Positions 7,020 through 30,300 of a stretch of DNA of 51,314 nt are shown here, one piece after another. The translations under genes were made by a program, and so were the position numbers. Source of the DNA: a virus; IMG/VR virus record IMGVR_UViG_3300042451_001715, positions 1 through 51,314 of that record. One strand, written 5' to 3'. The notes under the pieces were generated by a model, which was not told the origin of the DNA, searched no databases, and worked only from the letters and a program-made list of their open reading frames with translations. How positions within the stretch are numbered: position 1 is the first letter of the stretch; each line of letters starts with the position of its first letter.

Positions 7020-9185
7020 ATGACCACCACAAACGCCGCAGATAGTTTCCAAGTTCAGAAGCTGGAAGAGAGTTTGCCTGCTCCCAAGCGGCTTAGTGAC
7101 TCCAGTCCACGAATGCCTTTTAAGAGCGGCTACAAGCTCACGCGCGAGCAGGAGGACGCTTTGGTATCGCACGCGATTTTGAGGCTGGATCAAATTGAAA
7201 AGCAAATGGGCAAGCGGCAGGCTGTAAACAGCCACGGCACAATACCAGGCGACGATTTCAGCATTCAATGCGAGCCAGGCAGTTTTTTAGGGAAGCGTGA
7301 AAAATTTACAGCGCGGTATTACAACCATGTATCTGACCGCGTGGAGAAGGATACGATTTTCGAGCATTCCAACCTTACGGCTTCGCTCTCCCAGCGGATT
7401 TGCGGGCAAATGATCGCCAAGAGCAGCACTTTCTTCTATGGGCGTCCGGACGATGACGAGTGGTTCACTGCCGAGGGCGTGGGATTGGAGGATGACGCGC
7501 TTGCCGACAAGGTGAAAAAATATGCCCGCCATATTGCCAAAAAATGCAAGGTCAAGGAACGGCATGTGCAAGCGCTGGAATTTGCGTGGGTGCGCGGAGA
7601 ATCCGTGTTGAAAACTACGCACCAAGAACGGTTCCAAATCTACAAGCGCACGGCTACCTATTTGATTGACGAAGCTGGCGAACCATTGCTTGACGCATAC
7701 GGCGACTACATTCTCGACTCCGATTTATTTGTTCCAGAAACAGCGGAGCAGCCTGTCACCATGCAGGACGAAGCTGGAATGCCGATTCAGGATGTGCAGG
7801 TGGTCGAAACCGGCAACATGGTTCTCAAGCGCGACGGCGTGACAATTCTCCCGCAACAGCCTCTCTACACCACCGGAGAAATCGTGCGCCGCCTGGTGAC
7901 TTGGAGCGGACCAGATTCGCGTATTTGCTATTACAAGGATTTCATCTGCCCTCTCGACGCTCCTGGCATCCAAGCTGGCGAGGCCGATATGGTGGCGCAC
8001 CTCTACGATAAAAGCGTTATGGATCTCGCCCAAATGTTCGGCGGGCAATTTGCCGAGGGCGATGCGCGGAGGCAGGAAATCGAAGGCGCTGTGGAATTGC
8101 TGCGGAATATGGTGAGCGATTCCAATATGCCCAAGAGCGCGGCGGATCAGCCTCGTCCGGATTTTGGCGAGCGCGATACCGAAGGCAGCGTGAACAATCC
8201 CAAGGTGCAGTTGGCCGAATGCTGGTTGACCTACGACGCTGATGGCGACGGCATCCAAGAGGAAATCATGATGGTTCTCGACCGGCGCAACAAGGCTCCC
8301 ATTTTTTACGACTACACGGCCAATGTCACGCTGCGCGGCCTGCGTCCATTCACGGTGATTCGCCCTATGGAAGTTGATGGCCGGTGGTATGGCATCGGGG
8401 CGATGGAGTATTTCGAGCCAGAGCAGGATTTCATCGACCTGCAACTCAACCGGCAGAATTTTTTGGAAGGAGCATCGGGCAGAGTCACCTTCTGGTCGCC
8501 GTGGGCCACGCTTGAGGGGCAGCGCGATCCGGCGCTCAAGCTCAACCACGGGCGCACCTACACGCTACGAGAAGGAATGAAAGCCGAAGAAACTCTCTCC
8601 TATGTGTCATTGCCGGAACCCAAGGGCCAAGGGTTGCGCGCGCTCATGGAACTCTTCATGCAATTCATGCAAATCAAGAGCGGCGTGGTCAACGGAGCGG
8701 ATCAGCAAATCTCCGGCCTTCCCACGGCGGATACCGCTACCGGCATCAATGAAGTGCGCGACAGCGGCGCGGAGATGTTTGATATGTTTCTTTTGCGGCT
8801 TTACCCGTCGCTCCACGAGTCCTTGCAGTCCGTTGTTGATGTCGCATTCACGAATCTCAACGAGCGGCAGGTTTTTACTTATTTCAACGGCAGCGCGCAG
8901 GAAATCTTGGAACTCACGCCCGACGATGTGCGCGACCTCTCGCTCAATATCCGCCTCTCGATCACCCAAGCCCGCGACCGGCAGATTTTGGAAGCCGGCA
9001 ACATTGCCGATGGCGTGATTAACAATTTCTACGCACGCCCGCTTCCGCTTCAGGAACGCACCGCGCCGTATGCCCGCGCCCGGCTCAAGAGCCTCAAGGT
9101 GCCGCAGCCCGATTCACTCATCGAGCCACTTGACCCTGCGTTATTGGCTCCGCAACCCGCGCCTGGCTTTCCACCACCCCAATGA
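7020..9185 (+). CDS. portal protein
   Basis: 721 residues, the length of P22-class portals. Features are an early helix-rich stem (HLYDKSVMDLAQMFG in the middle), a wing region with NPKVQLAECWLTYDADGDG and WYGIGAMEYFEPEQDFID, the helical LQLNRQNFLEGASG segment, and a C-terminal INEVRDSGAEMFDMFLLRLYPSLHE block with a long helix and a proline-rich tail (ALLAPQPAPGFPPPQ). The FEPEQDFIDLQLN and TATGINEVRD patterns are typical of P22/N4/SU10-like podovirus portals. It forms the dodecameric DNA gate of the head. It is transcribed opposite to capsid and scaffold from the TTGACA-N17-TATAGA promoter; no clear Shine-Dalgarno precedes the ATG and the leader is about 11 nt. Confidence 0.85.
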   Translation: MTTTNAADSFQVQKLEESLPAPKRLSDSSPRMPFKSGYKLTREQEDALVSHAILRLDQIEKQMGKRQAVNSHGTIPGDDFSIQCEPGSFLGKREKFTARYYNHVSDRVEKDTIFEHSNLTASLSQRICGQMIAKSSTFFYGRPDDDEWFTAEGVGLEDDALADKVKKYARHIAKKCKVKERHVQALEFAWVRGESVLKTTHQERFQIYKRTATYLIDEAGEPLLDAYGDYILDSDLFVPETAEQPVTMQDEAGMPIQDVQVVETGNMVLKRDGVTILPQQPLYTTGEIVRRLVTWSGPDSRICYYKDFICPLDAPGIQAGEADMVAHLYDKSVMDLAQMFGGQFAEGDARRQEIEGAVELLRNMVSDSNMPKSAADQPRPDFGERDTEGSVNNPKVQLAECWLTYDADGDGIQEEIMMVLDRRNKAPIFYDYTANVTLRGLRPFTVIRPMEVDGRWYGIGAMEYFEPEQDFIDLQLNRQNFLEGASGRVTFWSPWATLEGQRDPALKLNHGRTYTLREGMKAEETLSYVSLPEPKGQGLRALMELFMQFMQIKSGVVNGADQQISGLPTADTATGINEVRDSGAEMFDMFLLRLYPSLHESLQSVVDVAFTNLNERQVFTYFNGSAQEILELTPDDVRDLSLNIRLSITQARDRQILEAGNIADGVINNFYARPLPLQERTAPYARARLKSLKVPQPDSLIEPLDPALLAPQPAPGFPPPQ

Positions 9186-9649: not shown

Positions 9650-10714
9650 TCATACAGAAATAAACGGTTGTTGGCGCACCCGTAGATGACCTCGGCACTC
9701 ACCCTCCATCTCATGGTAAGCGCGGTAATGGATAATTTCGGGGACTTCTTTGGGGGCGTCGGACGGCTTGCGTTTGATGTGGTCGCAGGCAATGTGTGGG
9801 ACGCAGGCGATTTTCAACCCTGCGGGGTGCCAGCGCGACCAGCACAAGAAAAGGTCTTGTGTCCCCTTGCCTTCGTATCCGGTAAAGTCTGCGTGCGCCA
9901 AGGCTCGCTTGGAAAGCAGTGTGCAGCCCAGCCCGCACCAGTCAGAGGGAACGATTGCCCCGTATCCAATGCCCGGATACGCAAAGTCCATCCATCCGCG
10001 CCTTCTCCATCCGTGTTTGGCAGTCACTTCCCAGATGTTGCCGTCCGGTGGCGCGTTTTTCACGCGCTCGCGTAGCCGTCCCATGCGCTTGCTCTCCTTC
10101 TCGCCGATCTTTTGTGCGGCTTGTGCTTCCTCTTGATTGGTCGGAGGCTTGATAGCTTTTAGCCGTTTTTCGCATTCTTCCAGACATAATTTGAGGCGTG
10201 TCCGGAGTTTGCGCTCTTCGGGCAGGAAATCCTCGGCGATCTGGTGTTGTGGCGAGCCAAAGCCCCCCAAGAAAAGCCCGTTCGGGTAGGTTGCGGCGGC
10301 TATGTCGTAGTGCGGCGATCCGTCCGCCGTGGGCATATCCAGCGTCCATTCAAGCACTCGCAGGGCGTCAGCGGGGAGGATTGTGTCGCTTTCCACCACA
10401 AGACAACGAGAGGCGCGAATTTTTCGAGCAAAAGAAAAACAAGCCCCTTGGAGAGCGGCAATCCGCATTTGCGCTTCTTCTTTGTATCGCGTGCTGGAGT
10501 CATCTTTCATGGGCAATGCAAGAACGCTCACCTTCCAACCCTCTGGTAGTTCCTGCTTGGCAAGTTCTGCCGCAGCTTTAGCCTCCTTGCTCTCGTCGGT
10601 TGCTAAGATGAAATGCGCCTCGTCATGGTGAGATGCGGCGGCGGCGATGGCACGCACGCATTGGGGCCATGCGTGGAGGTAGGATTTTGTTGCGGCGACG
10701 GTGATGGATAGCAT
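9650..10714 (-). CDS. GT-A-type glycosyltransferase-like protein
   Basis: 354 residues. The first half looks like a family 2 GT-A fold: MLSITVAATKSYLHAWPQ, then a beta strand ending in an acidic triplet (CLVVESDTILP, the likely metal/sugar-nucleotide site in the place of DxD near residue 110). A charged helical insertion follows (about residues 170-225). The C-terminal half has the usual acceptor-side features (GWMDFAYPGIGYG, SDWCGLGCTLLSKRAL, GTQDLFLCWSRW). It lies 5 bp downstream of the large tail-type gene, in a region with a second glycosyltransferase and Ser/Thr-rich proteins. A role in glycosylating virion proteins is inferred; DNA or host-surface sugars are alternatives. Confidence 0.65.
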   Translation of the reverse strand: MLSITVAATKSYLHAWPQCVRAIAAAASHHDEAHFILATDESKEAKAAAELAKQELPEGWKVSVLALPMKDDSSTRYKEEAQMRIAALQGACFSFARKIRASRCLVVESDTILPADALRVLEWTLDMPTADGSPHYDIAAATYPNGLFLGGFGSPQHQIAEDFLPEERKLRTRLKLCLEECEKRLKAIKPPTNQEEAQAAQKIGEKESKRMGRLRERVKNAPPDGNIWEVTAKHGWRRRGWMDFAYPGIGYGAIVPSDWCGLGCTLLSKRALAHADFTGYEGKGTQDLFLCWSRWHPAGLKIACVPHIACDHIKRKPSDAPKEVPEIIHYRAYHEMEGECRGHLRVRQQPFISV

Positions 10715-10719
10715 TGTGT

Positions 10720-12690
10720 TTAATTCCTATCAAGAAACGCCCCCGCTCCAATAACACTACCAGAACCGTTACCCATAGACTCGCCAAGAAACGCGATGGG
10801 GGTAGCTACTATGCAAACGCCCCCGTTATCCACTATATCACCCGCGCTCCATGTTGTAATGAAGGTTGAGGCCGATGCGGATGGATTCGTATTGCCTTTA
10901 GTTACTCTATACGCTCCACCGGATTTACAAACTACAGTTATTGGCTCGCCATTGCAATACCCCCCGGCTACGCCTGCTACATCATAGACATCAGCGGTAG
11001 TAGCATTATCAAGTGGGGTATACGTAATAGATTCAGAATAGCTAGCGCTAGTTGAACTATTGAAAGTAGTTCTGGATACTGTAGTATTTGACCCGTCTAT
11101 AGATGCCCTCCAAACTGTAGTGCGCGAATTAGAATTTGCATTGGAGTGTGAAGTAACTGCATACGTTATATCTTTTTCAAAGTGAAGTATAGGGACAATA
11201 GCGTGGTTATCTTCTACAACCCACTCTGGGTAGTTTTCAAACATCGCAGAGTGTCGAAAACTTTTTGCTTCGTTTGTGCGGTTTGCAGCAGCCCAATGGT
11301 CGTGCAAGTCACTATAAACAACTTTTTTTTGTAAAAATTGGACCTTATCGTTGGAAGTTACGCCTACTTCAGAAATTACAAAGCCTGGCGCAACAATTCT
11401 GTAATGCCTTTCTGTGCCATCCCCCCAAGCTCCTGTAAGGACTACCTCTTCCGTAAATGTATATAAAGATGGCCTATTCCAAGATGAATTAACATTCAAT
11501 ACAGAGTAGGTTTTAAACGGCGGATTAGAAACAACCCCAACAATACGGTCGATTACTTTTTTACTGGTCATCTGATGTGTAACTACTGGACTAGCCCACG
11601 TAAACCCGCTCCGATCCGGAGCGTTAGCGAAGCCCCCACCAAAATTCCATGATGAGGAAGTGGTTGTAGTTACCCATTCAAATCCGACATTGTCCATCCT
11701 AGTAGATGTAGTAGCTATCCAAAGCGATACCCCAGAGCTATTTGCAGACCGCACGTTGACGGTTCTAGTTTTGTTGTTACTAGAAGCGTAAAAACCTTTG
11801 TATGAAAGAGCTTCCCATTGTGAGGAGGAAGAAGAAACCGTCCACTCCCCTAAGTCGGTGTTTGTGGCGCTACCGCCCCAAGTAAAATCTGATTTTATAA
11901 AGCTATCTTGGTATGTAACATCATAATAGAGATGAGTTGAATAATCAGATGCCGCGTAGCTCCCAACACATAACATTTCTCCTTCATCGGCTTGGTATCG
12001 AATTGTATATGCGCCAGTGACTAGCACCGCATCACTTGGACTCTGCATCCACTGTAGTTTTGACGTTGCCACTCTGGTAGCTGTAGATGTGACGTAAGTG
12101 TCTATAGCTGTAAAATGGCTCGTAGTTTGATAACTTACAGCGGAGATAGTTGTCACACCATTTACGATGGTGGTATTATATTTTGTAGGAAAACGTGTTG
12201 TTGTAGTGGTAGAAATGCGTTTTCCGCTATACACGGTTCCGGTATGGGTAACTTCTGTTGGAACATTATCCCCGTATTCATCGTCCCACACATAGTCATA
12301 AGATGATTCTGTATAAGTGTTATAGGTTTCAGTTCCGCACGGCACTTCCAAAGATCGCGAAAATTGAGAAGTAGGTGTGGTCGCCGCTGGGGTTGACGAG
12401 CTAGAAGTTTTGTAAGACCACCTAGGGGTTAGCAACCACTGATACTCCCACCATTCAGCAGAATACGTGCACCCTTCTTTTCTGCAGTTGCGTGTGTTTC
12501 CGTTGACAAACTTGAAACTCTCTATATCATAACTCCTTCTATTTATTTCTGTTTCGCCATCTCCATTTTGAGTTACTTGTCGTGTATGAGTTCCCCCGTA
12601 GTAAATATCAACGTAAGATTGAGAAGCGACAAAATAGCGCTCAGGCGCGGAAAACGTTTTTAGGTTTGCACTATAAATATAGCTCTGCAT
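10720..12690 (-). CDS. large Ser/Thr/Tyr-rich tail-type protein, unknown
   Basis: 656 residues with a very high content of Ser, Thr, Tyr and Trp and almost no helix-type sequence; short beta-prone stretches alternate (TYNTYTESSYDYVWDDEYG, TTTTSSSWNFGGGF). The C-terminus ends GSVIGAGAFLDRN. No catalytic motif is recognised. The composition and its place after another tail-like gene and before a glycosyltransferase point to a beta-rich tail or receptor-binding protein, or a glycosylated surface protein. The DNA looks more AT-rich than its neighbours, which fits an exchanged host-range module. Confidence 0.6.
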   Translation of the reverse strand: MQSYIYSANLKTFSAPERYFVASQSYVDIYYGGTHTRQVTQNGDGETEINRRSYDIESFKFVNGNTRNCRKEGCTYSAEWWEYQWLLTPRWSYKTSSSSTPAATTPTSQFSRSLEVPCGTETYNTYTESSYDYVWDDEYGDNVPTEVTHTGTVYSGKRISTTTTTRFPTKYNTTIVNGVTTISAVSYQTTSHFTAIDTYVTSTATRVATSKLQWMQSPSDAVLVTGAYTIRYQADEGEMLCVGSYAASDYSTHLYYDVTYQDSFIKSDFTWGGSATNTDLGEWTVSSSSSQWEALSYKGFYASSNNKTRTVNVRSANSSGVSLWIATTSTRMDNVGFEWVTTTTSSSWNFGGGFANAPDRSGFTWASPVVTHQMTSKKVIDRIVGVVSNPPFKTYSVLNVNSSWNRPSLYTFTEEVVLTGAWGDGTERHYRIVAPGFVISEVGVTSNDKVQFLQKKVVYSDLHDHWAAANRTNEAKSFRHSAMFENYPEWVVEDNHAIVPILHFEKDITYAVTSHSNANSNSRTTVWRASIDGSNTTVSRTTFNSSTSASYSESITYTPLDNATTADVYDVAGVAGGYCNGEPITVVCKSGGAYRVTKGNTNPSASASTFITTWSAGDIVDNGGVCIVATPIAFLGESMGNGSGSVIGAGAFLDRN

Positions 12691-12696
12691 AGGCAG

Positions 12697-13284
12697 TTAG
12701 TTCCTAGCCCAAATATACCAAATTTCCCACACGCTTTCATTTGGTTTAGCGTTTACTCTAGTTGTTCTACCCGCCTCCGCAACGTATAACCCGATGTTTT
12801 TTTTCCCAGATAAGTTATATGCAGATTGGTCCTTAATTACTCCGAGTAGTATTTTAGAGGAGGCTGGAATTGTATCTTTTACGGCTGCATCGGGAGGGGG
12901 TGGCGTTGTTACAAACGACAATGTGGCAGAATCTACGGCCCTTTTATTAGAATCGAACTTAACTTCTGCTTGTAAATATCTTTCTTTTGCATCGCCAATG
13001 TTGAACTTATCCCACATATTTGAAGGAAGAATGCCATTTATCGTCCCCGGTGTTACTACTGCTTCGTAACTTGTCCCCGTGTTTATTATATTAACATCCC
13101 AAGGCCCCAAACCGAAGTCCGGCGTGCCCTTCTTCAGCCTATCCCCATACACCGCATAGATGTTGTTGTCCCGATCCTTAATCATCGCCTGCCGGAACAT
13201 CCTTGGGCGGATTTTTCCAGGCGAACGGGCGCTGTTTTCGGTAAAATCTATTTCTTTGATTTTCTGGAAGCCCGAATTGTCCAT
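12697..13284 (-). CDS. tail-fibre-associated protein, unknown
   Basis: 195 residues, soluble and beta-prone, with no clear motif. It starts MDNSGFQKIKEIDFTEN and ends in an aromatic stretch (ESVWEIWYIWARN). A proline run (TTPPPPDAA) separates two halves. It sits between the glycosyltransferase at 13286 and the large tail-type gene, with 1 bp and 6 bp gaps, so it is probably co-expressed with them. The tail role is inferred from context only. Confidence 0.55.
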   Translation of the reverse strand: MDNSGFQKIKEIDFTENSARSPGKIRPRMFRQAMIKDRDNNIYAVYGDRLKKGTPDFGLGPWDVNIINTGTSYEAVVTPGTINGILPSNMWDKFNIGDAKERYLQAEVKFDSNKRAVDSATLSFVTTPPPPDAAVKDTIPASSKILLGVIKDQSAYNLSGKKNIGLYVAEAGRTTRVNAKPNESVWEIWYIWARN

Positions 13285-13285
13285 A

Positions 13286-14365
13286 TCAAATTTTGATATC
13301 GAGGATTGAAAGCAAATCGCCCCACCACGGCCATACGAGTTCGGGATTGGCTGGGCCTTCCTCCAGCACCCATCGGCGGGAGGCTGCAGCTATTTTTGCG
13401 CGGAGCGGTTCATCAAAAGCCAATGAAGAGGCGTAGTAGGCGGCCTCATCGGTGGAATCGGCCAAAAAACCGGTTTCCCCGTGGCGGATAAGTTCTATAA
13501 ATCCTCCGGCGCGCGCTCCGATAGGAATGGCTCCTGATAGCATGGCCTGCACGGTGGCGTAGCCGAAGGATTCTACAAATGGATAATAGTGAAGGAGAAC
13601 ATGAAGCCCGCCAAAAAACGCAGTGATCTCAGCGGGATCGTAAATGTGGCCTTGAAGTTCCAGATTAAAATAATCTGCCCACCGGCTGGTCGGATCGCAC
13701 GGGTTGCCGATTTTTTCGAGTGCATTAGCCCCCCACCCAGCAACTTTCACGCGAAGGCTCTTTGATACCGGCGTGTGGATATTCCCATACATGCGCCAGC
13801 TTTCTTCATGCCATTTCTCGGGATCGTCGCGGGTGGCTCGGCCTACGATAAATTCGTTTTTGCTTTTTTCTCCAGGCGCAAAAGGATACAGCGGGCAATC
13901 GGCCTCGATATAAGGAATGTAGTTGAGCCTTGTTTTAAGAACAGCACCCGGACTGCCTTGAAGGATTTGTGGTATTACAACCTTGGATATGGCTTTGCTT
14001 TGAAAGAAAAACTCATCGATAAGGCCGTCACGGAAAGCGGCAGCTTCAACATCCACGCCAAAAGACATCCCGCTTGTCCAAACCATGTGCTTGGGCCTGT
14101 CCGCGTATTCGCGCATATAGTCGAAACACACATCCTCGCCAAAGCTCACAAGCACCGAACACCGCTCAAACATGCCTGGGCGATAGTTTACAACCGTTAC
14201 GCCCATCGAGCGGAGCCACTTTGCGCGGGAGCCGTGCGCCACGGGATCATCCATTGGCACGATGCAGCGCACCTTCACGCCTTTCCTGCGAAGTAAATGA
14301 ATCGCTCCAAGAAGTTCGGCCCCACACCCCCCCGATTGATGAATGATGCCAAAAAAAGAGATCAT
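13286..14365 (-). CDS. GT-B glycosyltransferase (group 1 / GT4-like)
   Basis: 359 residues. The N-terminal part has a glycine-rich loop (IHQSGGCGAELLGAIHLL) as in GT4 acceptor domains. The C-terminal domain carries the GT4 signature: VESFGYATVQAMLSGAIP, with the two glutamates spaced as E-x7-E-like donor-site residues, followed by ARAGGFIELI and HGETGFL. Length is normal. Its ATG overlaps the stop of the Ser-repeat gene (ATGA at 14362-14365), so the enzyme and a likely acceptor protein are translationally coupled. GT4 enzymes transfer sugars from nucleotide-sugar donors; the substrate here is inferred from the neighbours. Confidence 0.8.
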   Translation of the reverse strand: MISFFGIIHQSGGCGAELLGAIHLLRRKGVKVRCIVPMDDPVAHGSRAKWLRSMGVTVVNYRPGMFERCSVLVSFGEDVCFDYMREYADRPKHMVWTSGMSFGVDVEAAAFRDGLIDEFFFQSKAISKVVIPQILQGSPGAVLKTRLNYIPYIEADCPLYPFAPGEKSKNEFIVGRATRDDPEKWHEESWRMYGNIHTPVSKSLRVKVAGWGANALEKIGNPCDPTSRWADYFNLELQGHIYDPAEITAFFGGLHVLLHYYPFVESFGYATVQAMLSGAIPIGARAGGFIELIRHGETGFLADSTDEAAYYASSLAFDEPLRAKIAAASRRWVLEEGPANPELVWPWWGDLLSILDIKI

Positions 14366-14853
14366 GCGGCTTTAATTGGGACAGAAAACGAAACGATTAT
14401 GCTTTCGTCCTCAAAAGTGACGGTTTCTTGTTGGTTTGGAGTTTCCGTAGTGGTCGTAGTTTTTGCACCATTTCTAGTGCGACTGGTGCGCAGTGGTTCC
14501 GTAGTGGCTTGTCGGCGGGAAGCGCTGCGACTATCCGAAGCGCTGCTCGATCTGCTCGTGCTGCCGCTGCGGGATGTGCTTGCAGAACGCGAAGAAGATT
14601 GGCTGCTTGATTGGCTGCCGGACTGACTGCGAGACGATGACTGGCAGCTTGATTGACTGCCGGATTGGCTGCGCGAAGAAGATTGGCTATTGGATTGGCT
14701 TCGGCTTCGTGAAGAACTTTGCGAAGTGCTGGATGAACGGCTTTGTGACCGGCTGGAACTTTGTGACCGGCTGGAACTTTGCGACGAACTTCCCGATGTG
14801 CTGTGTGAACCGCGCACATCTGCCTGCATTCCATCTAAATCTTCACGAGCCAT
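14362..14853 (-). CDS. mucin-like serine-repeat protein
   Basis: 163 residues. Residues 15-115 are almost entirely Ser with Arg, Gln and Gly in short repeats (SSSRSQSGSQSS), then a Thr-rich piece (AKTTTTTETPN) and a short beta-type C-terminus (ESIIVSFSVPIKAA). There is no signal peptide. This is a classic O-glycan acceptor composition. Coupling to the GT4 gene by ATGA overlap supports glycosylation. It could be a flexible virion decoration or a tail spacer. No homolog is recognised. Confidence 0.65.
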   Translation of the reverse strand: MAREDLDGMQADVRGSHSTSGSSSQSSSRSQSSSRSQSRSSSTSQSSSRSRSQSNSQSSSRSQSGSQSSCQSSSRSQSGSQSSSQSSSRSASTSRSGSTSRSSSASDSRSASRRQATTEPLRTSRTRNGAKTTTTTETPNQQETVTFEDESIIVSFSVPIKAA

Positions 14854-14855
14854 AA

Positions 14856-15497
14856 TTATCTAAACCCTGCGCCATTTTCTTGGATTTGAATTGCGCCATT
14901 ATTGGAATCCATCACAAAGTAGGAATAAAGATCGCATGTCCTTGTTTGCGAAGTCTGTGTTTGCGTTTGCGTTTCTGTGGTGGTGGCGGTTTCCGTTCCC
15001 GTTTCCGTTCCCGTTTCCGTTCCTGTTTGTGTATTGGTTTCCGTTTCCGTTTGAGTCGAAGTCTGTGTCTCTGTTCCGGTCTCGGTGTTCGTCTGGGTCG
15101 AGGTTTGTGTCTCGGTTCCGGTCTCGGTGCTCGTCTGGGTCGAGGTCTGTGTTTCCGTTCCGGTCTCGGTGCTTTGATCGGCAGTTGATTCAGCAGAAAT
15201 TTCAACGCGAGCAGTGGTCTCTGCGTTCGATTCCTCCACAATCGTTTCAGAAGGGTCTTGTTCTTGCACCGTAAGCTGCTCCCCTTCGACGCTTTCGCGC
15301 GTCACGCCACCGCCGCTCACGGTCTGCGCGCGGGTAAAACGCTCGGTCGCCGTAACAACCTCTGCTTGAAAATCTACCTTTTCTGGCACTCGCGCCCAAG
15401 CGATGCCGGTATCTCGTGCAGCCACTACGCCTTCATTGATTTTTCCAATGATGCTTGCAATGGCTGTATTGAGGTTTGAAAGAAGGATTTTAGCCAT
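14856..15497 (-). CDS. threonine-repeat (mucin-like) structural protein
   Basis: 213 residues. An ordered N-terminus (MAKILLSNLNTAIASIIGKINEG, helical) is followed by a Thr/Glu/Gln/Gly repeat (units like TETGTETQTSTQT) over about residues 105-180, then a small C-terminal domain (CDLYSYFVMDSNNGAIQIQ) that resembles fibre caps. It lies 2 bp upstream of the Ser-repeat gene, so the two repeat proteins and the GT4 enzyme form one unit. A TTGACA-N17-TATGTG promoter candidate lies about 50-80 nt before the ATG. Confidence 0.65.
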   Translation of the reverse strand: MAKILLSNLNTAIASIIGKINEGVVAARDTGIAWARVPEKVDFQAEVVTATERFTRAQTVSGGGVTRESVEGEQLTVQEQDPSETIVEESNAETTARVEISAESTADQSTETGTETQTSTQTSTETGTETQTSTQTNTETGTETQTSTQTETETNTQTGTETGTETGTETATTTETQTQTQTSQTRTCDLYSYFVMDSNNGAIQIQENGAGFR

Positions 15498-16218: not shown

Positions 16219-18381
16219 TCACCGGCCTGCAAACATTCTTTCGCGCGTTTCGCGGCGGGCTTCCGAGAAGGCCTTGCGGATTGCTTCAATGTCGTCTTCG
16301 GTAGGGTTGGCAACGCGCGCCGGTGTGGTTATGGCGCGGAGTTTCACGCTGGCAAGGCGACCGGAGGCGAGGCGGAATCGGCGGGTTTCTTCGGCTGTCA
16401 TTTCCACCTCTTTCCCGTTGCGGTCTTTGTAAACGGCCTTGGCTTGCTCGGGGGCGTAGGCCATTGAGGGGTTGGCGCGGTTCCAATTCATAAGAAGATT
16501 GTCCGTGGCCTCAAGCACGGGTTCTGTGGCCAAGGCGCTGTTGAAGAACAAACGCATCACAGGGCTGCTGCCTTTTCGGATTTCGTTTCCGTAAACATCC
16601 ACTTTGGGTTCGGCCAAGTTGCCGGTTGGCAATAAAGTGTAGGTGGCCGGAGCGGTCTTGGTATCGCGCACATAATCGTCCAGGTTGCGAAGCGGTTGGC
16701 GGATTATGTTTGGCACGAGAGCCTGCAATACCGTGCGCTTGGTTGCGCCCACGGGGTCGGATTTCCCTTCAAGGATTGTGGAAATGTTAGCGATGCCTTG
16801 CAGGAAGGTCTTCGAGTTGGTCTGAGCGACCATATAGTTCCACAAACTGGCGAGGTTTTCGGTGGTTGATCCGTTGCGTTTGATCGAGCGAATCAAATCC
16901 GTCGTTGTTCCTAATACGGTGGCGATGGGATCAAACCGCCCGTAGGGGATTGTAATGCCGTTGCGCCCGCCGATGCGAATCATATACTCGCCTCCCGTGG
17001 CGCGGGTGTTGAGGTCGCGCAGGCCCGCCGTGGCTTCGCTGCGTGGCTGACTGCCGGTGATGAGGAGCATCTTGTCATCGTCGTCATCATCTCCCTGCAC
17101 GGCTCCAAAAATGAGAGCCATGGCTGTCCAGGCAATAAGCTGCTCGCTCATGTCGCGCACAAGTGTGGGGTCTCCGTCGAGAAAGGCTTTGCCGTCTTTC
17201 ATAGCGAGAAAACCTTTCCCGGCTTGCCATGCGAGGTTTGCAGCGCCGATTGGAGATTTGCGTATGCCGGTGCGGAAAATGTTGTAAGGCGTTTTGACGA
17301 ATGGGAAGAAAAACCCGATGAGTTGATTATTGAACCGCGCGTCTTGGAGTTTTGCTGCTGCGTCCTCAAACAAACTGCCTCCCTCGTTGCTGCGCTTGAG
17401 GTCTTGTTGGAATGTCATCTCCTTGGATTTTTCCACGGCGCGAATCCAAGCGTCTTCCGTCCATCCCGCATTTTTAGCGGCATCGTAGGCGGCTTGCTCG
17501 CGGGCGAGTTCCCACGCCTCGCTGCTGCGGTTGGCAATGAGCGCGGCAGGGTCGAGCGAGGCGTCTCGGCGAGCCAACTGGCGGGCAAAGTATTCGACCA
17601 TCTCCTGCGATGGGGCGGCTGAAGACAGGTTTTCGCTTACAATTTCGCCACGAGTTTTTGAGAGTTGCGCTACTCGATCTGTGAGGGCTTGCCCGCGCAG
17701 TCCTTCGGCCTTGGCAATACGATACGCAAATGCGGCGACATTCATTTGCCCAGAGAGTTGTTTGAAGAAAGAATCCGCAAAAAGCAGTGCCCTGCCTGGT
17801 ATGCGCACAACGCGCCCAGTTTGTCCAGGAATGGCAGTGCGGGTGTTGCCGAGTTTATCCCATTGGCCGAGTTCGAGAGGTGTTCCGAGAACAGTGTGCT
17901 CGTAGAAATCGTGTTCTGCGCTCCAAGCCTTGGCAGCCATGGCGAGGCCTTTTGTAATGCCTGGCATGATGCCACGGGCAAGCGACTTGAATTCTCCAAG
18001 CTGCGCCGCTTTTTTGTCGCGCACAAATACATTCACCAACGCCTCCATGCCGCGTTGCAGCGTGCTGTCGAGCGCAAGAAATCCCGCGTTGCCCGCGATG
18101 TTTGTTACTTGTGTTTGTGGACCCGAGAGAATGTTCATGATCCACCACTCGTAGGCCATGGCCCCCAAGCCAGCTTCACTCCGCGCGCTTTGGATGGCGC
18201 GGGCAAGCCGCATCACATGAGCGGGATCATCGATGCGGAATTTTGGCCGGCCGATTTTCTTGGTGTCGCTTGTGCCCACCATACCGCTGAACCATTGGTC
18301 AAATGCCGCATCGGCTTCTGCGTCCGAAACCTGACCGCCAAATAATCCGGTTTGTGTTGGCGCGGCCTTCAATGTGACTTC
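16219..18381 (-). other. giant protein: C-terminal virion/polyvalent-associated domain
   Basis: Residues about 5747-6466, after the last TLKAAP boundary motif. It contains the block FFFPFVKTPYNIFRTGIRKSP (first 20: FFFPFVKTPYNIFRTGIRKS region), a hydrophobic helix LIAWTAMALIFGAVQG followed by an acidic run of six Asp, and a basic helical end. Such C-termini recur in phage internal virion proteins with several effector domains and probably anchor the protein in the head or help it cross the membrane. Confidence 0.55.
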
Positions 18382-21300
18382 ACTCTGCTTGTGGATACCG
18401 GCTTTGAATTTGGCGAGGTGTTGCTGGCGCATCCGGTTTTTGAATGCGGTGAATACGGCCTCCACGGCGTCTGGCTTCATGCCGGTGCGCTGTGCAATTT
18501 GCGCGGTTGTCTGGTTTTTACGCAAAAGGAGATCAAAGACCTCAGACTGCTTGGGCGTGAGGCCGTTGCGGAATTGGCGTTGAATTTCTGCATTGTTCAA
18601 GCCCACCACCACGCGGTTGCCTAAAATGTCTTCAGGAGAAATTCCGGCATCTTTGAGCTTTTTGAGAAGCGCAGCGGTCACGCTGTCGATAAGGGCTGTT
18701 TTTTTGGCAGGGTCTTTTTCCGCGTCGATTTTTTCTTTGTCCTTCTTGCCTGGCGTAAGCATGAGATCGAGGAGAAATTCGCGATGACGCATGGCAGGAG
18801 TTTTGAAGGGATCGCGGCGAGAAGCTAACGCCCTTCCAGCCTCGGTGCCGGTGGCGCGATAGGAATACCAGAAAACATTGAATGCCTTTCGGTCTTCATC
18901 CTTGCCAGTTTGGAGCATTTTCTGGCGAAGCGTATTGGCGATTTGGTCGGCTGCCTTGGTGAGTTCTGGAGAAATCGTCTGCCCCGATAGTCCTGCCTGC
19001 TCGATAGAACGACGGGTTCCCTCAAAATCCTTTGTCACCATGTCGCGCGCGGCGGTTTCCCATTGGGCTTCGGTTTCAGGAAGGAATCGATCGGTGTAGA
19101 ATTGATCCAGCCCGCGCACATCGGGGTTGTTTGCTCCGAAAGCCAAGTCTGGGCGACCGACTTGATAGCGTTGCCCGCCACCTTCTTCGAGAGCGGCTTG
19201 TTCCTGCTTTGCTACAGCATTGTCAAGATCGGCAGGAACGCCATTGAGGTCGTTGAGTAGATTTTTTAAGTCGCTTTCAAACGATTCGCCAGGAGCAATA
19301 AAATCTCCGTCGTCTTGAGGTGTGCCGGAGGCGGCGAAAAGAGGTTCGCCAGATTCCAACTCAACAGGTCGGCCACCAATAAATTGCACTTGGCCATTAG
19401 TATCCGTAAAAAGAGCCCGCACTTCGGGAAGGCGCGGCAGGAGATAATCTGCCGTGCCACGGCGGCTGCTGTTTGCGTTATCCACGACGGTTAGCGTGTC
19501 GCGGTAAAGCCTTTCGGCGGCTTGGGCGGCTTCGCGAAATTCGGCTTGGTGGGCGTCGTAGTCGGCGCGATAGATCGGCGGCTGGATCGGTTGCCCGCCT
19601 ACGCTGTTGCGGGGGGCTTCAAATCGGTCGGCGAGACGACGAAGACCCCAAACCCGCGCCGGTGCGTAGGGGATTTTGGAAAATGCGTCTTCGGCGGGGA
19701 TGCCGAGTCGGGTTTGTCCAGGATCAAGGGATCGAACGGGCGCGGTATTTGGCGAGGGTTGCGCACTGGGTCTGTTTCCAATGCTGCCCATTGCTCTATC
19801 GGCGCCGAGTGGTAGGGTTCCGGATATTCCATACTCGCCTATACTTTCGGCAAGCGTGCCAGTCATCGGATTTTTTCGAGCCGCAGAAAGAATTTCTGTC
19901 ACGCTACCGATGCCTTGTTCGTTGAGTTTTTGCCGCAGTCGCTTAAATCCCTCTTGCTGAAGTTTACTGACGGCCTGTTTGCTGATTCCAAACACTCCTC
20001 CAATTTCCTCTTGCTGCCGTTGTTGCAAATAGCCCTCCACGGCAACGCGCATTCTTTCGGGGAGAGTCGCAATAAGACCGTCGATGAGCATTTTGGCTTC
20101 ATTTCGAGATGCCATTGTTGGAGCATCGGGCGTTGTCGTATCAGGAGTGTAATCTTGGCGTGTCTCGTCAAAATCACCAGGCAAAGGCTCATCGAGGCTT
20201 TGAGGAATACGCTCGCGGCGAAGATTTTCACGCCGGTAGAGCGCGTTGAGCCTATTGCGGACGACAATGGAAGAGTAAGGCCCAAATGGAACGCCTCTTG
20301 TGGGATCAAATGTGCGGGCGGCATCGGCCAGCGCAATGCGGGCAGTCTGCCTCACCTCGTCCATGTCCACTCCAGGAATGTTTGAGTAGGTGGAAGCCAT
20401 AGCCATTACGCCATCAAGTCCGGATTGGAAACGGGAGGCGGCGGATTTTTCGGCATCCTCCTGCGCGGCGGCTTGGTTGCGCGGGGCTGCATTGAAATCA
20501 AGTTCTAACTGGTTAGGGTCATAAACCTGACGGCGCGCGGCGGAGAGAGTGACAGCAGATGCGGCATTGCCCACTTGCTCGCCGTTTTCAGCCAGAATTC
20601 TGATTAAATTCTCATCAAAAACAACATAGTTGTATGTTCTTTCTAATGAGTCATCAAATGCCTTGGCTTCGGCTTGTGTTGCAAATCGTTTTGTTGTGCT
20701 TTGACCTGCGGTTGCATCGGCGTATGTCACCGCCCATTGCGATCCATCTTGCCAAATAGAGGAGTTGCTGCCCCTACTAACGCCATCGAGATAGCGAATG
20801 CCGGGGATACCTGCGACGAGTAATGCTTCAGAGGCTTTTTTCTTTGGATCAATTCCATCGCGGGAAAATTCCGCATCTGGCCATGTTGCGGTTAGAGTTT
20901 TGTATAACGCCCCGCCGACTGGGTTCCCAATTTTGCCAGCAATGGTATCCTTCCAAAGAAGGCTGTCGGACTGAACCGCTTTCAACGCTGCCTGCACCTT
21001 CGGACTTTGCTCGGATAAGCGTTTATCCCAGTCAATCAAGTCTTCTGTTTCGACATTGAGGTCAACGGTATAAAGGTTGCCTCCAAAGTCATCAGATAAC
21101 AGTTCTTGGATTGCAAATTTAACATCTTCATTACTTTGATCCCATGAATCAGAACGCATGTAAGCCAGCGCTTCTGCGCGGTTCCCCTTAAACTCCATTG
21201 CCATTCTGGCGTATTCATTAGAAACCGACAGTTTGCGTTGATAACTTTCGCCTACTGACTTGCTCTCCGCAAAATACAACCCCCACCCATAAGCCTGTGC

Positions 21301-24300
21301 GCCCTCGCCTGTGCCGATCTTGTCAGTGCTAAATTTGTCTACCTTGTGCGGCGTGCCGTGATATGTTCGGGCGGCTCCCAAAGTGATATTTGCCGCCTCT
21401 GTCGTGATTTCGGCATTGGCAAAACGCAAACGCGACGAAGGCTGAGTGCGCGCGGCGGAGAGTGTAGTATCATCCGATACCGCGTCTGTTTTGCCTTTGA
21501 GGTCGGCGTTGTAGAGTTTTTCCACTTCCACGCGCTCGGCGGTGAGAGCATCGTATTCTGTTTGGTAAGGCCACGCCGCAGCTTCATCCATGCTGGCAAG
21601 AGCGCGTAACTTGGCGACATTGTTTTGCTTGCTCGACTCGATGCCGGTAGTCGTGTCCCCCAATTCCTCCAATCGAGACAACAGTGTGGCGGGGCTGGTT
21701 ACGGCCCCAAACGAAATATCATTTTCCGCATCGACGGGAAAGGCCAGAAGCTCAAAGGAAACCGTGCCGCGTTGTTCCATGCGCTGTGCATCGTCATTCC
21801 ATTGTTGATCTACGCGAACAACTGGGCGCAAATGAATAGGAATATCATTAACTGTAATAGAAGTCACCGGATCGGCGGTTTGCTGCCCTTCAAAAGTCAG
21901 CTTGAGACTACGCCTGGCTGTCTCCATGGCATTTTTGATGGCCTCAATAGTTTCTACTTTTGTTGGGAAAGTTTGACCGCTCACTGAAATAGCGGTGCCA
22001 TTTGCGGCAATACTTTCGGAAAGTGCCCGCATTTTTGTAATCGAGGGTTGAGAACGCTCGTTGATGGCCTGGACGGCCTCAAGTGAACGCTTGGCAATGC
22101 GGATTTCTTGGGATCGCGTTTCGGCTTCGCGTTCGTTAGCTCTACGGCTGATGTCGAGTTCTTGCAGCCGAGAAGTGATTTCCCAAAGTCGCCGCCCATA
22201 TTTGCCAGAAAGAACAGCGCGCTGCTCTTCAAGGGTCATTGTGCCTTTGTCTTCAGCCAATTCGCGTCCGGTGACTTTGCCGGAGAGCGCGGCATTCGAG
22301 AACCGCTGCTTGGTTTCGAGTTTTTGCCACAAGGCGGCATCGAGCGTGTCGCTCATTCCGTAGCGGATGAGTTCGATGTCCTTTCCGTGTTCGCCATGCA
22401 CATTGCCCTGGCGGAACACGCGTCCGTCGCGCTGCTCAAGCTCTGCCGGAGTCCAAGGAACATCGAGGTGATGAGCCGCAAGCATGAGCCTTTGCATATT
22501 CACGCCGGTTCCCAAACGCTCGGTGCTGCCAATAATTACGCGAATTTTGCCTTCGTTTACTAAATCGAAGAGAGCCTGCTTTTTCTTGTCGGAATTCCAT
22601 GCGGAATCGGTGATGACGGCGATTTCTCCGGTTGGTATGCCTTGGGCGATCAGTTTTTGCCGGATGTCTTCGTAGAGGTTAAAAGTTGTTCCGGCAGGTT
22701 TTGTCGGGTCAATATCTAAATCCAGCGTGGCGCTGGTGACTCCCTCGAAAAGCGATGTTCGCACACTGTTGAAAGAATCGGCAAAAATCACCTGTGTTCC
22801 GCTATAATCGGCGGACTGGCGGTAAAGCCCCATGAGGCGTTCCACCATGCGGTTCACCTTGCTATCCGGCTCGTCCTTGGCGAGGGGATTGATGAGGCGA
22901 ATATCGATGGCTGCAGCGCGGCTGGCCATGAATGCCTGCACCGGCACGGCAGTAAGGCTTGGATTTTCTGCCAATGTTTCTCCCGAGAGGTTTGAAAAAT
23001 CTTCCAAGACACGGCGGATGTAGGCCACCCAAGAAGAAACGCCTTTAGTGCGGGATACCGCGACTAATTCAGGCTTCCCTCCTTTAATGCCTGGTCGATT
23101 CTTCACCACAAGATCGTCACCAAGTTTGACATCGGCGGCTTGCCGCAAAAATGTGTTCCACTCCGGCAGGTTCACAAACTTGGCAAGTCGATCTACATTT
23201 TTGAACTCACCTGTTGGCCCCATTTCCGCCTCCGTTGTCACTTGAGCAAACTTGCTAACAAACTGGTCAAAAAGCTCGATATTCCATTCTTTGAGCACAT
23301 TGGGCGCGACCAAGCGGGCCATGTTCCAGATTTCCCCCAGTGTGTTTGTGACGGGGGTTCCCGTCATGCTAAAAACATTTTTCCCGCCCATGCGCTCTTG
23401 AATATACCTGGCACGCATGAGGAGGTTGTAAGCACGCTTGCTGGTGGAGCCATCAATACCTTTGGCCTCCAACTGCGTAGAAAAAGGCATTTTCTTGAAC
23501 TTGTGAACCTCGTCCACAATGAGGGCATCCACGCCAAGTTGTTGGAAATTTAAGAGTCCGGTATCTTTGCGGCGCTCGCTGGCTTGCTTAATGCTTGTCT
23601 CCAAACGCTCCATTTGTTTGATCATCGCCTTTACGGATGGAGATTTTTTGCGATCTTCTTTTGCTTCGTTGATCGATTTGTAGCCCTTATCGCGAAGTGT
23701 TGCTACAAATTCGTCAAGGATTGCGTTTGAGGCGTTGATTTCTACCTGCGGATCGTCCTCGATCATTCCAAATGTCGAATGGGCAATGACAACAGCATCC
23801 CAATCGCCTGCTGCAATGCGCATAAGAAACTCTTTTCGTTTGTCGCCCTGAAGTTCATCTTTGCGGCCAACCAGCACGCGGGCTGTGGGTGCCATTTTAG
23901 AAATTTCTTGGGCAAATCCTTCAAGTGTGGCGTTGTGAACTACAATCATAGGTTTGCGAGCCATCCCCAGCCGCCGCATTTCAAGCGCAACCGCGCTGCC
24001 AATGATTGTTTTTCCTCCACCAACGCCGTGGGCGATCAGGCCAAATCCTTCCTGAAGCGCGCGCCAGATTGTATTTTTCTTGTCGGGATAAATGTCGAAA
24101 TCTTTGTTTGCCCACGGAAATTGAAGAAACTGCCCGTCGTAAGTGCGCTGCACAAAAGCATTCACCTCGTTGTTAAATTGCTCTTCCAACTCGGCGGTAA
24201 CATCGGGCGTTGATCTCACCCAATCTTGGAAGCTTTGGTTTAGCAGTTTTGCCCGTTCACGCGCCGCTGTGGTGGCGCCCATATCGATGCCGCCGCCATC

Positions 24301-27300
24301 TTTTTCCGGCAACCTGATAGTGATTGCGCGCAAATTAAGCAACGAATCCATGATAGATTCGATATCGATACTTGTGGTTTCGTATTGCTTGTATGCGACG
24401 CCGGTCTTGAGTCCATATCGGCTTTCTTGATTTTTATCGCGTTCCCAGCCGCTACGCTCGCGGGTCGGCACATAGACAAACCTGGCGCTATTGACCCCCA
24501 AACTTTGCAAGAAGCGGTTGTAGATGTCGGCTGGAATCCAAGTCGCTCCAATACTAAACCGTATGTCATCAATCCCGACGCGCTGGGGTTGCACGGATTC
24601 AAGGAGACGAACATTGCGGGCATAGTCAGCCCCAGCTGCACGGGCGATGGAAAGTTTTTTGCGGACATTGCCGGCCAGATATTGTTCACGGGAAACAATG
24701 TTGCCGGTATCAGGGTCGCGCACGGCTATTTCCTGAGTGAGAAGTTGCGTTTCCACTTGCTCCGGGGTCTTGCCAACCAACTGTCCAATAAATTGGGTAT
24801 CTACGCGACCCCGCCAACCGAGACTTATGCCATACGCGTCTTCAATCGTTTCGGCGGTTGTTGGCTCGCTGCGTGGAGCCATGACGCGGCGGTTAAAAAT
24901 ATCAGCCCTTGTGTAAGTTTTCTTTTGTGGACGATTGACTCTCTTTGCAAATTCCTCGGCACTAATCCCCTCTGTTCCTTGGTTTGCTTTGGGTTCTATT
25001 TCTGCGCCGAGAAGTCGGAAATAATCCGGATCGTCGATAAAAAGTTTTTTGTTTTTTGTATCGTGGAAATAGCCGTTTTCGGCAAGGAACCGAGTATATG
25101 CTGTGTTGAGCACGCGACGGTTTGCCTCGATCTCTTCGTCAGTGGCGGTCTCGGATAGCTCAAGATCGTATTGGCTATTGAGCGCATCGCGCACCGAAAG
25201 AAAGCTACGCGTCCGCTTGGCTGTTTTAGGCTCGTTGAGTTCAGCGTCCGGCTCTTCCTGTCCTTGGCGATAAAATTTGCCATCGCGCTCGATGATGTTG
25301 CCCACCTTCACCACGCTTGTAGCTCCGGTGCGCACGGGGCCGGTGGCCTCGATCTCTCCAAGAATTCCTTGAGGAAGTCGCGCCAAATCCTGCTGCATGG
25401 AAATGGCGGGAGGGCGAGATGGATCGCCGTGGACGGTCATTTCTTTTTCGTCGCCATACATACTACCGTCGTTGTCGAGTTGCCCGAGGATATTTTGCGG
25501 ATGCGTGGCAAAATACTCGTTTATCCGTATGTCTTCGCCTTTACGGGTCTTCGCGTTGTCCAAGTTCACCCAAGATTGAGCGTGAGGGAATGGTTTCCCA
25601 TCTTTCTTTCTCAAGATAATGATGTCCGTTACAACATCTGTCCCCGCATTTTCGCGGAAAGCGTCATTGGGTAGCCGGTAGGCAGCAATAAGGTCGGCGC
25701 GCTCGGCAAGCCATTTACGAATTTCTGGATTGCCCTTGTCCATCGTAAACGCGCTGGTGATGAATACTTGAATTCCGCCAGGCTTGAGCTTTGTAATGGT
25801 TTTGCCGAAGAAATAATCATGCAGATTTCCAGTTGGTCCGCCCATCGCCTCCAGCGCGGGATCACGCACGGGAATGTTGGCAAAAGGCACATTGGAAATG
25901 GCAAGATCGATTGAATTGTCGGCAATATCGGCAGTTTGGAATCCTGTATTTTGGATGTCTGCTTCAGGGTAAAGCGCCTTGAGAATTTTTGAAGTGTAGG
26001 CATCGAGTTCCACGCCAAAAAGCTTGCTGCGGTCGGCGATTTCTTCTGGCATGAGGCCAAAGAAATGCCCGATACCGGCACCAGGCTCCAAAATATTACC
26101 TCCTTTGAAGCCCATCCACTTGATGATGTCCCACATTCCTCCGACAATTTCAGGGCTGGTGTAATGAGCGTTGATTGTGCTGCGTCGAGCATCGCGGTAT
26201 TCTTGGTCGCTCAAAAGCGCGCGCACTTCTTTATGCGCATCATACCATTTGGATTTCCAATTTTCGAGGCTTTGCGCTTCATCTTCTAAGTCTTTTACAA
26301 TCCCTGCATAATAAGCATTGGACGCAATGTATCCGCGATAGCGGTCTGCATCGCGGCGTAAACGATCGATTTCCCCGCGCTCTACCAATCCTGCTTTTTC
26401 GTCGTCAAATACCTGCGACAAAGCGCCCCATCCCGAAAACTTGACCAGTTGTTGTTTTTCTTGAGGGGTTGCAAGCCGTTTTTCGTTGTCAATCGATTGA
26501 ATGACGCGGATTGCGTCCAAGTTAGCCCGCAGCTTGCCCACAATGCCTCTTGGGGCAAGGGCTTGGTCGCGAGTAAGAGAAATGTTTCTTTCGGCGCTTC
26601 CTACAGCGGGTCGTTCGACTCTGATCCCGTTACCCGGCTGAAGAATTCTTCCGCGAGGTCTTGGATTGGTTGTAGGAATGGCTCGTCCTGGCTGTCCTCC
26701 CAATTCTCCGGATACGGGAAGATTGTCGCCAGCGATTCCGCTGCGTCTATCCCCGATAGGCTTGACGCTATCAACTGTAGCGCCTTCCCGTCCATCCACA
26801 CGAGGAATTCCTCCTCCTTGCTCGGGTTCATTGCTGGGCGCAACATCAATGTTCGAGCTATCTCGCTCGGCTGCTCGAATTCGAGCCATGAGCGAAAACA
26901 AGTCTCCCACTCCTCCGTCTTCCGAAGGTTCTTGCGCTCCTCGGGCCGAAGTTTGTTGCTCAGGAACCGGAGCAGTTCCGGGTCTTGCTGTGGCGGAAGA
27001 TTCTTGTTCATTGGATTGGGTGTCATTACTTGCGAGTTCAGGCGCAGTCAACGGGTTTGCTGTCGGCGCATTTGGTTTGTAGTCGAAAAGGTCCAAAGCC
27101 TCGGTCGCAGGCAGGCCGATGTCTTGCTGCGCGGCAGCTGCTTGGGCAACGGGGTGGGTGATGCCATCGGCTTCCAATGCAGATTTGTAATCCTGCACCG
27201 CAGGCGCGGTGAAATCGAAATCCAACTGGTTGTCGTTGGCTTTACGGCGAGGGGCGGCAAGAGTAAATTCCGCTAAACTTGCTTCAGGGCCTTTAGGCGT

Positions 27301-30300
27301 GTCTTTGATCGTCCATCCCTCGGCTGTAATTTCTTGGCGAATCGTATCGGCCAACGCCCAAGCTTTTGCTTTCCTGGCTTCTTCGCGTTGGGAGATGAGT
27401 TCTTGAATGCGAGGCGGAACGGCGGGTGCAGAAAAAACAGACTCATCTACATCTTGAGATTGCAGGTATTTTAACCCCGCTTGGTAGCGTTGACGCTGCG
27501 ATTCTGATGGATCATCGGCCAGGTTGCTCAACATATCCGCTATTTTCACCGCTGTTGCGATGGAGTTTTGGCGGATATTTTTGTAGTAACTGGCAACCGA
27601 TTGATTTTGAGATTTGGTCAATAACCGCACGGCGGCAATGACATCTTCAGGAACCCCCAATCGCTTGATTTCTTGAAAGCTATAATTGGGGTTATCTTCA
27701 ACGACATCATGCAACCATGCGGCAGCGCGGATGTTTTCATCGGCATTTTCCAATTTGCTCACAACATCGCGGATATGCTGGATATACGCTGTCTTGCCGT
27801 CTTTGCGAAATTGGTTTTTGTGCGCCTTCGTGGCTATTTTCTGAGCGAGTTGAAGAAGCTTAGATACAGGTTGACTGGCCGCCATCTCGCGCGTAGGAGA
27901 TGAAGGTATGAAAGATGTAACACTAAAACGAGATATGTTCCCAGATGGCGCGAAATTCTGGGTGGATGACGGCACGCCAAAAGTGACAACGCCTGACGGC
28001 AAGGTGTTTGGTGTTGGGCCTGATAAGTTTGCCGAAGCTACTGCGCGATTTACTCCCAACCCATACGGGCCGTTTGTGCGCGAAGTGGATTGGGAGGAAT
28101 TTACAGAGGCTATTCGCGCGGAGTATTTGCGAATTGCTAAAGCGTAAAGCGCTTTCATCTGTTTTTCAAGATAGGCCTTGCGCTCTTCGGAGGTGCCTGG
28201 AGCGCGATATTCTTCATATAGTTTATGGCCAACGCCGTCTGGGACGCCCAAATTTTCCGCCTTGTATTTGTCGGGCATTAAGTTCGGAATAAATCCCTCT
28301 TTGACGACAAGCATTTCAGGAATGTGGACTTGTAATTCAGCCCAATATCCAGGCAAAAGCTGGATTTTAATGTTTATGTCGCTGTATCCGCTGGCCAACG
28401 GCACATTAAATCGGTCTTCCATCCAGATTTTCACCATTCCGTCGCCGGAAGTGTAAAGGTGAGTGCCCTTGTCCTGCTGTTCGGTGCTTGCGGTGTTCCC
28501 GCTATCCGGAGCAAAGGTGTGAAGAATGTCTGCGATGGTTTGCTGAATTTGATCGGCAGAATCTACAACAACCGAAGCGCGTAAAATATCGCCCCCTTTA
28601 TCTTGAACCAGTTGGGCGATATCTGTATCTATTCCGTTGGCCTTATTAAGGCGAAGCGTTTCTCCTATTTTCTCTAAAGCTCGCGGAGCGCCTTTCAGCG
28701 CAGGAATCAAAGCACGGGCTTCCTTTTGGCCTGCGGCAATGGTTTTGATGGCGCGGTCGAAATCCTTTTTCATCTGCGCCATGTCGGTGAGGCGAGAAAT
28801 GAAATAGGGTTCGATCTCTAATTCCTCGGCGTTCAGTTCGACCTCGAAGCGATTTTGCGCCTCCTTGATTCCCATTGTGATGCCAGGCTGATCTGGGGAG
28901 GACGCCCGAACCAAAGTCACTTTGTCCTCGGGGATGTTGATCGACTGCACAACAAATTCGGCACCAGAGTTGGGCGCGCGCAATTTACGGCCTGGCGAGG
29001 TGATTTTCCAACCGCTGCGCCAGTTGCCATCCATCCGGTGAGGGTATTCGCCACCTGTTTTTTTAAGTTCCTCGATGCGGGATTGGATGTCTTTCTTGCG
29101 TTGGCGAGTGGCTTCTTTAAGCCGCGCTGCGGCTTTGGTGCGGTTGAACGACGGAGCGGCAGAAAGCACCAAATCCATTTGTTCCACGGGCGCGCGTTCG
29201 ATGCCTCGGCGTTCGACCTCCTGCTCCAACTCGAAACGCTGGTCGCGGGTGTCCTCAAAGAAATCCATGAACTGCTGGCCGGCCGATTGCTCCAATCGGG
29301 CAAGCTCGTCGCTCTCGTAGCGGGTTAGTCCTTCTTGGCGACGCTTGCGCTCCAATTCGCGCATTCTTTTAGCGCCTGTATTCTTGGGAGCTGAAAGCGT
29401 CGTTTCGCTAGCAGTTTGGGTATTGCGGCGATGCGCTGCGTTGATCGCGGCTACGCGCTCGGCCATAGTCATTGGCTGGCCAAACAAATTTCCCATGGCC
29501 TCGTCTTCGGTTGCTCGCGCAATACCGCTGGACAACGCAACCATGTAATCTTTCATCGCCTCGCTCGTCGCGTCGGTGTTGATGCGACCGCGCTTGTCGA
29601 GCACGATCAATTCTGACAATCGCTGGGTGATCGCAACGGCCACACCGGTGTCGCCGACAAGAGCATTCATCTCGATTTGGCTGGAGGCCAATTCGAGCGC
29701 GCTTTTTAGCGACCTATCTTGATCCAAATAATCGGCGACATTGGAAAGCAACCCGCCAAACGCATCGGCAATGCCTGGGCTGCCGCTTTGCCGCAGGGCG
29801 ATAGCGGACTTGGCCGCGTCGGCGGATAATTCGACAAAAGCGGCGTTGCGGTTTTGCAACTGGTAATCGGCAATCTTGTTGGTAAGCGTTGGTTGCCCAA
29901 GACCGGCAGTAAACATTACCCGCTGCATATAGGCTTGCGCCTGCGCGGGATTTTTTACCATTGGTTCGACGCGGTTGCGCTCGACGATGTTTCCTGGAGC
30001 AGTCAGGAGGCGGGAAAGCGCCTCTGTGGCCTGTTTGCCGCTCATCATCACCGGAAGGTCCGTGACTAAATCGAGTGGAATGTTTTTTGCATCCAAGTCG
30101 GCGCGGTCGGAGACATCCTGCACAACGCCAGTTGAGGGGTTCAAATCATCGACGAGTTTTTGGTATTCGCGCGCTCCCGCTTCAGTGCGGATATCAAATG
30201 TTCCAAGGAACCGGTAGCCACGAAACCCTTCAGGCATGGCTTCAAATCCAAACTGCTGTCCTTTTTCGCTCCATGTTTGGCTCAATCGATCTTGATCTTC

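Follow-up and report, generated by a model that had tools for sequence, protein, structure and literature searches.

The window, by which we mean the whole stretch of 51,314 bp that was analysed, is an uncultured phage record with an SU10-type portal protein (7020..9185, plus strand; PF23899, E 3e-15), a giant open reading frame (ORF) of 6466 aa and a collagen-like tail fibre. Six genes on the minus strand occupy positions 9650-15497. They encode, in order, a Thr-repeat protein of 213 aa (14856..15497), a Ser-repeat protein of 163 aa (14362..14853), a GT4-type (GT-B) glycosyltransferase of 359 aa (13286..14365; GT4 below), a 195-aa protein that we term the anchor (12697..13284), a hypervariable 656-aa protein rich in serine and threonine (26% S/T, GC 0.44; 10720..12690), which we propose as a tail adhesin and glycosyltransferase (GT) acceptor, and a second, predicted GT-A-fold glycosyltransferase of 354 aa (9650..10714; GT354). 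The distances between successive genes are 2 bp, −4 bp (an ATGA overlap), 1, 6 and 5 bp. A sequence-only reading of this DNA had listed the order and positions of these genes, the 2-bp gap and ATGA overlap, both types of repeat (Thr and Ser) and two GTs, one of them a GT4, and all of them are there as it described.

The upstream neighbour of this module is the giant ORF (16219..35619, minus strand), a hallmark of the phage group with homologues in related records; it takes up 38% of the record, and its homologues in relatives measure ∼4400-6600 aa. A plus-strand gene at 15645-16211, kept in close relatives, encodes a 188-aa protein with a signal-peptide-like start, the C-terminal part of which resembles the C-terminus of a scaffold-like protein (5814-6923), making it an apparent secreted paralogue. 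In one close relative (L004, 7588-8256) a DUF3431 (PF11913) gene lies between the giant ORF and the Thr-repeat gene; it is missing in the window, adjoins GT4 in G034 and is present without GT4 in G019. The collagen-like (GDKGDTG) tail fibre, built of 81-bp tandem units, is encoded at 1-2245 on the minus strand, and a lone tRNA-Met (9204-9277, plus strand) directly follows the portal gene, on the strand opposite to most genes.

The Thr-repeat protein, defined by its ORF, a 42-bp tandem unit and the alignment of its family, consists of a conserved N-terminal domain (GV..AR...PEKVDFQ..VV) followed by an acidic (T-X)n repeat. The Ser-repeat ORF encodes a basic (S-X)n repeat and a conserved C-terminus, xVxFSVPI, a motif common to G001, G003, G005, G008 and others. 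Serine and threonine account for 54-63% of the repeat parts, against 7-18% of other ORFs in the window, and they recur at every second residue: the lag-2 autocorrelation is 0.59 in the Thr-repeat protein, a value matched by 0/5000 shuffles, and 0.30 in the Ser-repeat protein, matched by 7/5000 (s.d. of the shuffle controls ∼0.1). All six serine codons are mixed within the repeats, indicating that the pattern is maintained in the protein and does not merely reflect slippage of the DNA. The number of repeats varies between close relatives, from 161 to 310 aa for the Thr-repeat protein and from 113 to 261 aa for the Ser-repeat protein. These proteins had been called mucin-like, a label that fails in the strict sense of a PTS domain because they contain too few prolines (2 in the Thr-repeat and 3 in the Ser-repeat protein); their two repeat regions are, moreover, oppositely charged. 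The mucus-binding and immune-shield roles proposed alongside that label are not supported.

We read 30 portal-family records, and the unrelated record G001, in whole or for the greater part. The Thr-type protein (PEKVDFQ motif) and its dipeptide partner (xVxFSVPI end) are conserved as a pair across related giant-ORF phages, usually located ∼2 kb behind the MCP gene and after connector genes (most records); the pair belongs to the head-tail structural module. A lack of the pair in L005-L009 was considered and rejected, as the whole contig G003 carries it elsewhere in the genome. The alternating spacer residue is Ser, Thr or Asn, and the Ser partner of G008 is Asn-rich with the alternation retained. 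The low-complexity parts of the two partners bear opposite charge in 17 of 21 genomes, and in G001 the signs of both are swapped together. Their charge densities anticorrelate with a rho of −0.93 over the 21 genomes and −0.96 over 10 clades, compared with only −0.18 to −0.47 for control proteins, although this was an unplanned observation with region boundaries set by eye.

GT4 matches Pfam PF00534 (Glycos_transf_1; E 3.9e-8) and PF13692 (E 2e-6), both above cut-off, has a C-terminal Rossmann domain of GT1/GT4 type and is distantly BshA-like. R179, K184 and E265, the first Glu of the EX7E motif, are invariant among its relatives. The second Glu is replaced by Gln in the window, L008 and G012 and by Thr in G001, the motif being intact in G005, G018, G033 and G034. 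Pfam searches returned no DUF1975 match in GT4 and no second GT4 in the window region.

The window clade, G011 and G001 all have the Thr-repeat, Ser-repeat and GT4 genes in this order on a single strand. The 4-bp overlap between the Ser-repeat and GT4 genes is kept in the window clade and in G001, the GT4 of which is 32% identical to that of the window and which has no match to the portal, MCP or giant ORF. Among portal-bearing records GT4 is present in 15 of the 22 with the repeat pair and in 0 of the 8 without it (Fisher p=0.002), an association that is not phylogenetically independent since the pair was gained or lost in only two independent changes on the portal tree, where a sign test for GT4 against the pair is not significant. 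In the records read, GT4 was seen only in genomes with the pair, most of these records being incomplete and absences of either gene set therefore soft. The pair occurs without GT4 in G008, G019-G021, G029 and G032, and in most relatives GT4 lies 3-11 kb from it. The S+T content of the Ser partner is 57-79% in all genomes with GT4 against 37-55% in all genomes without it (full separation; clade-level exact p=0.0095), a post hoc comparison in which the GT4 absences rest on partial contigs; the Thr partner shows no difference between the two groups. GTs of the PF00535 family occur in most pairless relatives, so that having a GT of some kind does not set genomes with the pair apart, GTs being common in the phage group. 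On these genomic data, the linkage of GT4 to the S/T-rich repeat pair is moderate.

For GT354 no Pfam, PHROG or NCBIfam family passes. Its AlphaFold2 model, of moderate confidence (pLDDT 79), gave many Foldseek matches to GT-A glycosyltransferases, the best with an E of 5e-8 and a low TM-score of 0.42; the top structural match was COLGALT1, a protein-acceptor GT, and others included ABO-type enzymes and TarS. Both acidic residues of a DxD-like metal motif (E108-x-D110) are invariant in 30 sequences. As modelled, GT354 is a GT-A-fold glycosyltransferase.

A search with GT354 matched >90 viral loci, of which the best 80 were analysed. A three-gene cassette is found in 74 loci, a count that takes in the window and three earlier loci. 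It comprises an anchor-family protein of 150-260 aa, an S/T-rich protein of 340-750 aa and GT354, the genes usually overlapping or at most 40 bp apart; in three more loci (L055, L062 and L063) the gene pair is adjacent but convergent. When the 195-aa anchor family alone served as the query, without recourse to the GT, all three genes were present in 33/33 loci with >3.3 kb of downstream sequence; some loci come from near-identical phages, so that neither the 74 nor the 33/33 are all independent. The anchor is conserved in its N-terminal half and variable in its C-terminal part. The middle protein is hypervariable, having no BLAST similarity in 92 of 144 pairs in which GT identity is at least 90%, and the 656-aa protein of the window has none to counterparts whose GT354 is up to 96% identical. 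Its composition is nonetheless steady, with an S+T content of 21-39% (mean 29.5%, as against 8% in the GT) and 1.6% Lys. An AlphaFold2 model of the family (18 members) reached a pLDDT of 41 with an all-beta tendency only and was not used further. The siphophage cassettes come after the tape measure gene (PHROG tape-measure matches in L094, L029 and L045), which makes the anchor and the variable protein candidates for the tail tip. The gene-order evidence makes the linkage of GT354 to the S/T-rich hypervariable protein very strong. The hypervariable protein of G026 (12515-14494) has a dipeptide-like sequence of its own (47% S/T/N), which connects the two modules. A GT354 relative (62%) was also seen in L106, a contig of 3.4 kb in a Burkholderiales MAG; this is a possible host hint or else misbinning, and too weak to name a host.

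The coupling of S/T-rich proteins to GTs picked out by the sequence-only reading thus recurs beyond the window, as Thr/Ser/GT4 in G011 and the unrelated G001 and as the 656-aa type with GT354 in each of the 33 loci. Its further proposal of an O-glycosylation cassette with its acceptor is supported in part, insofar as GTs are coupled to S/T-rich proteins, but the strongest pair is the 656-aa protein with GT354 and not the Thr/Ser proteins with GT4. A GT unrelated to the repeat proteins in other genomes had been named as evidence against that proposal, and this is half the case, as the pair occurs without GT4 or mostly 3-11 kb away from it. The description of the 195- and 656-aa proteins as tail-type draws on those relatives in which the genes follow a tape measure, the window proteins themselves having no direct match to a tail family.

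The conserved links between S/T-rich proteins and GTs suggest that the phage may sugar-coat its own host-binding and surface proteins, and the simplest reading of the gene arrangement is that both GTs would serve the S/T-rich proteins that adjoin them. From gene linkage, hypervariability, tail position in relatives, conservation of the pair, charge match and GT4 co-distribution, all of them sequence-based, we infer virion location in this phage, catalysis, acceptor, sugar and benefit. The likely role of the 195-aa protein is to attach the hypervariable protein to the tail tip, and GT354 probably adds sugar to Ser/Thr residues of the latter. Across the different sequences of the variable protein, its richness in S/T and the accompanying GT are what stays conserved. 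Binding between the Thr- and Ser-repeat proteins is probably mediated by their oppositely charged dipeptide repeats, yielding what may be a flexible surface brush or fibre. The probable substrate of GT4 is the Ser-repeat partner, in a relationship like that of GtfA-type GT4 enzymes to (S-X)n adhesins. That two linked modules glycosylate the surface proteins of the phage itself is, in our estimate, an evenly balanced proposition. We put forward only tentatively the broader idea of a widespread and undescribed cassette, in which a whole-length S/T-rich hypervariable tail adhesin would be paired with a dedicated GT and its glycosylation kept through sequence turnover, and beside which a charge-complementary dipeptide-repeat pair, one partner sugar-coated by GT4, would form a new two-protein surface brush.

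The repeat proteins may instead be a charge-complementary structural polymer (a linker, brush or assembly glue) with Ser, Thr and Asn as neutral spacers and a different target for GT4. The opposite charges in 17/21 genomes and the clade-level rho of −0.96 fit such a polymer, as do the conservation of the pair beside connector genes with no GT4 nearby and the alternation retained in the Asn-rich partner of G008. We nevertheless regard it as somewhat unlikely, because GT4 is directly coupled to the pair in three contexts and never seen without it, and because S/T enrichment of the Ser partner occurs exactly in the clades that have GT4. An origin of the repeats in chance composition or slippage, without function, is scarcely credible: repeat number does differ between close relatives, but the mixture of six serine codons, the conserved termini and the retention of the pair over about ten clades with tracking charges refute it for the pair as such.

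It is also conceivable, albeit distinctly improbable, that the GTs modify host envelope glycans (for receptor change or superinfection exclusion) or phage DNA, their proximity to tail genes reflecting host-interaction genes that travel together. Other phage GTs have established roles of this kind (reviewed in PMC12619734); the distant resemblance of GT4 to BshA and the presence of GTs of several families throughout the phage group point the same way. A free-standing enzyme would, however, hardly account for the linkage of GT354 to one S/T-rich gene in 33/33 loci across unrelated phages. Another candidate acceptor of GT354 is the collagen-like tail fibre (window 1-2245), on which the enzyme would act in the manner of a collagen galactosyltransferase; COLGALT1 as its top structural match and the presence of the fibre in the window speak for this. 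As a general acceptor the fibre is disfavoured and very unlikely: an ORF with (GXX)8 or longer is found in only 15 of 47 cassette loci of at least 15 kb and in 2 of 11 long records that carry GT354, in contrast to the S/T-rich protein, which is present throughout.

If self-glycosylation by the two modules is correct, glycosylation of host-binding proteins would be a routine, gene-linked trait of a large group of uncultured phages, extending beyond a few isolates, and would account for receptor-binding proteins that diverge almost entirely and still function. The modules would also supply acceptors with matching enzymes, ready for use in bacterial protein O-glycosylation, and a clear test case of two repeat proteins assembling by matched charge. 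Among 50,697 cultured-phage records we found no homologue of GT4 (from the window or G001), the portal, GT354 or the N-terminal domain of the repeat pair, and nothing comparable turned up in the literature searched, coverage of which was incomplete.

Tailed phages commonly carry a variable tail fibre with a conserved anchor, a variable receptor-binding part and a conserved helper (chaperone) gene directly downstream. The cassette has the same order of anchor, variable part and helper, but here a glycosyltransferase fold is predicted for the helper, and S/T richness extends along the entire variable gene. Long Ser-dipeptide repeats are likewise a feature of the staphylococcal Sdr/Clf adhesins, the SD repeats of which are glycosylated by dedicated GTs. 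NCBIfam matches of our Ser repeats to SdrC, SdrD and ClfA were weak, composition-driven and far below cut-off; the SD repeats are acidic whereas the Ser protein here is basic, and there are no homologous domains. The SRRP adhesins of Gram-positive bacteria with their GtfA/GtfB enzymes are similar in having alternating (S-X)n repeats of variable number, clustered GT genes and an adhesin context (PMC6973325). They differ in that no DUF1975 was found in GT4, which stands alone where those systems have the GtfA/GtfB pair, in the presence here of a second, oppositely charged repeat protein, and in that the Ser-repeat/GT4 unit is part of a phage structural module, its neighbours being phage structural genes, instead of encoding a cell-wall protein. 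In the glycosylated virions of the mycobacteriophage Che8 and its relatives, virion proteins are likewise believed to be glycosylated by phage-encoded GTs; the modified parts there are the capsid and tail tube, and the GT genes lie near the genome end (PMC11256854 and PMC12619734, citing Freeman et al. 2023). The GTs described here, for which virion proteins are candidate acceptors, lie instead in operons with S/T-rich putative adhesin and repeat genes. By analogy, the mode of action of the phage system would resemble SRRP glycosylation and its outcome the glycosylated mycobacteriophage virions, while the system itself would be a member of neither.
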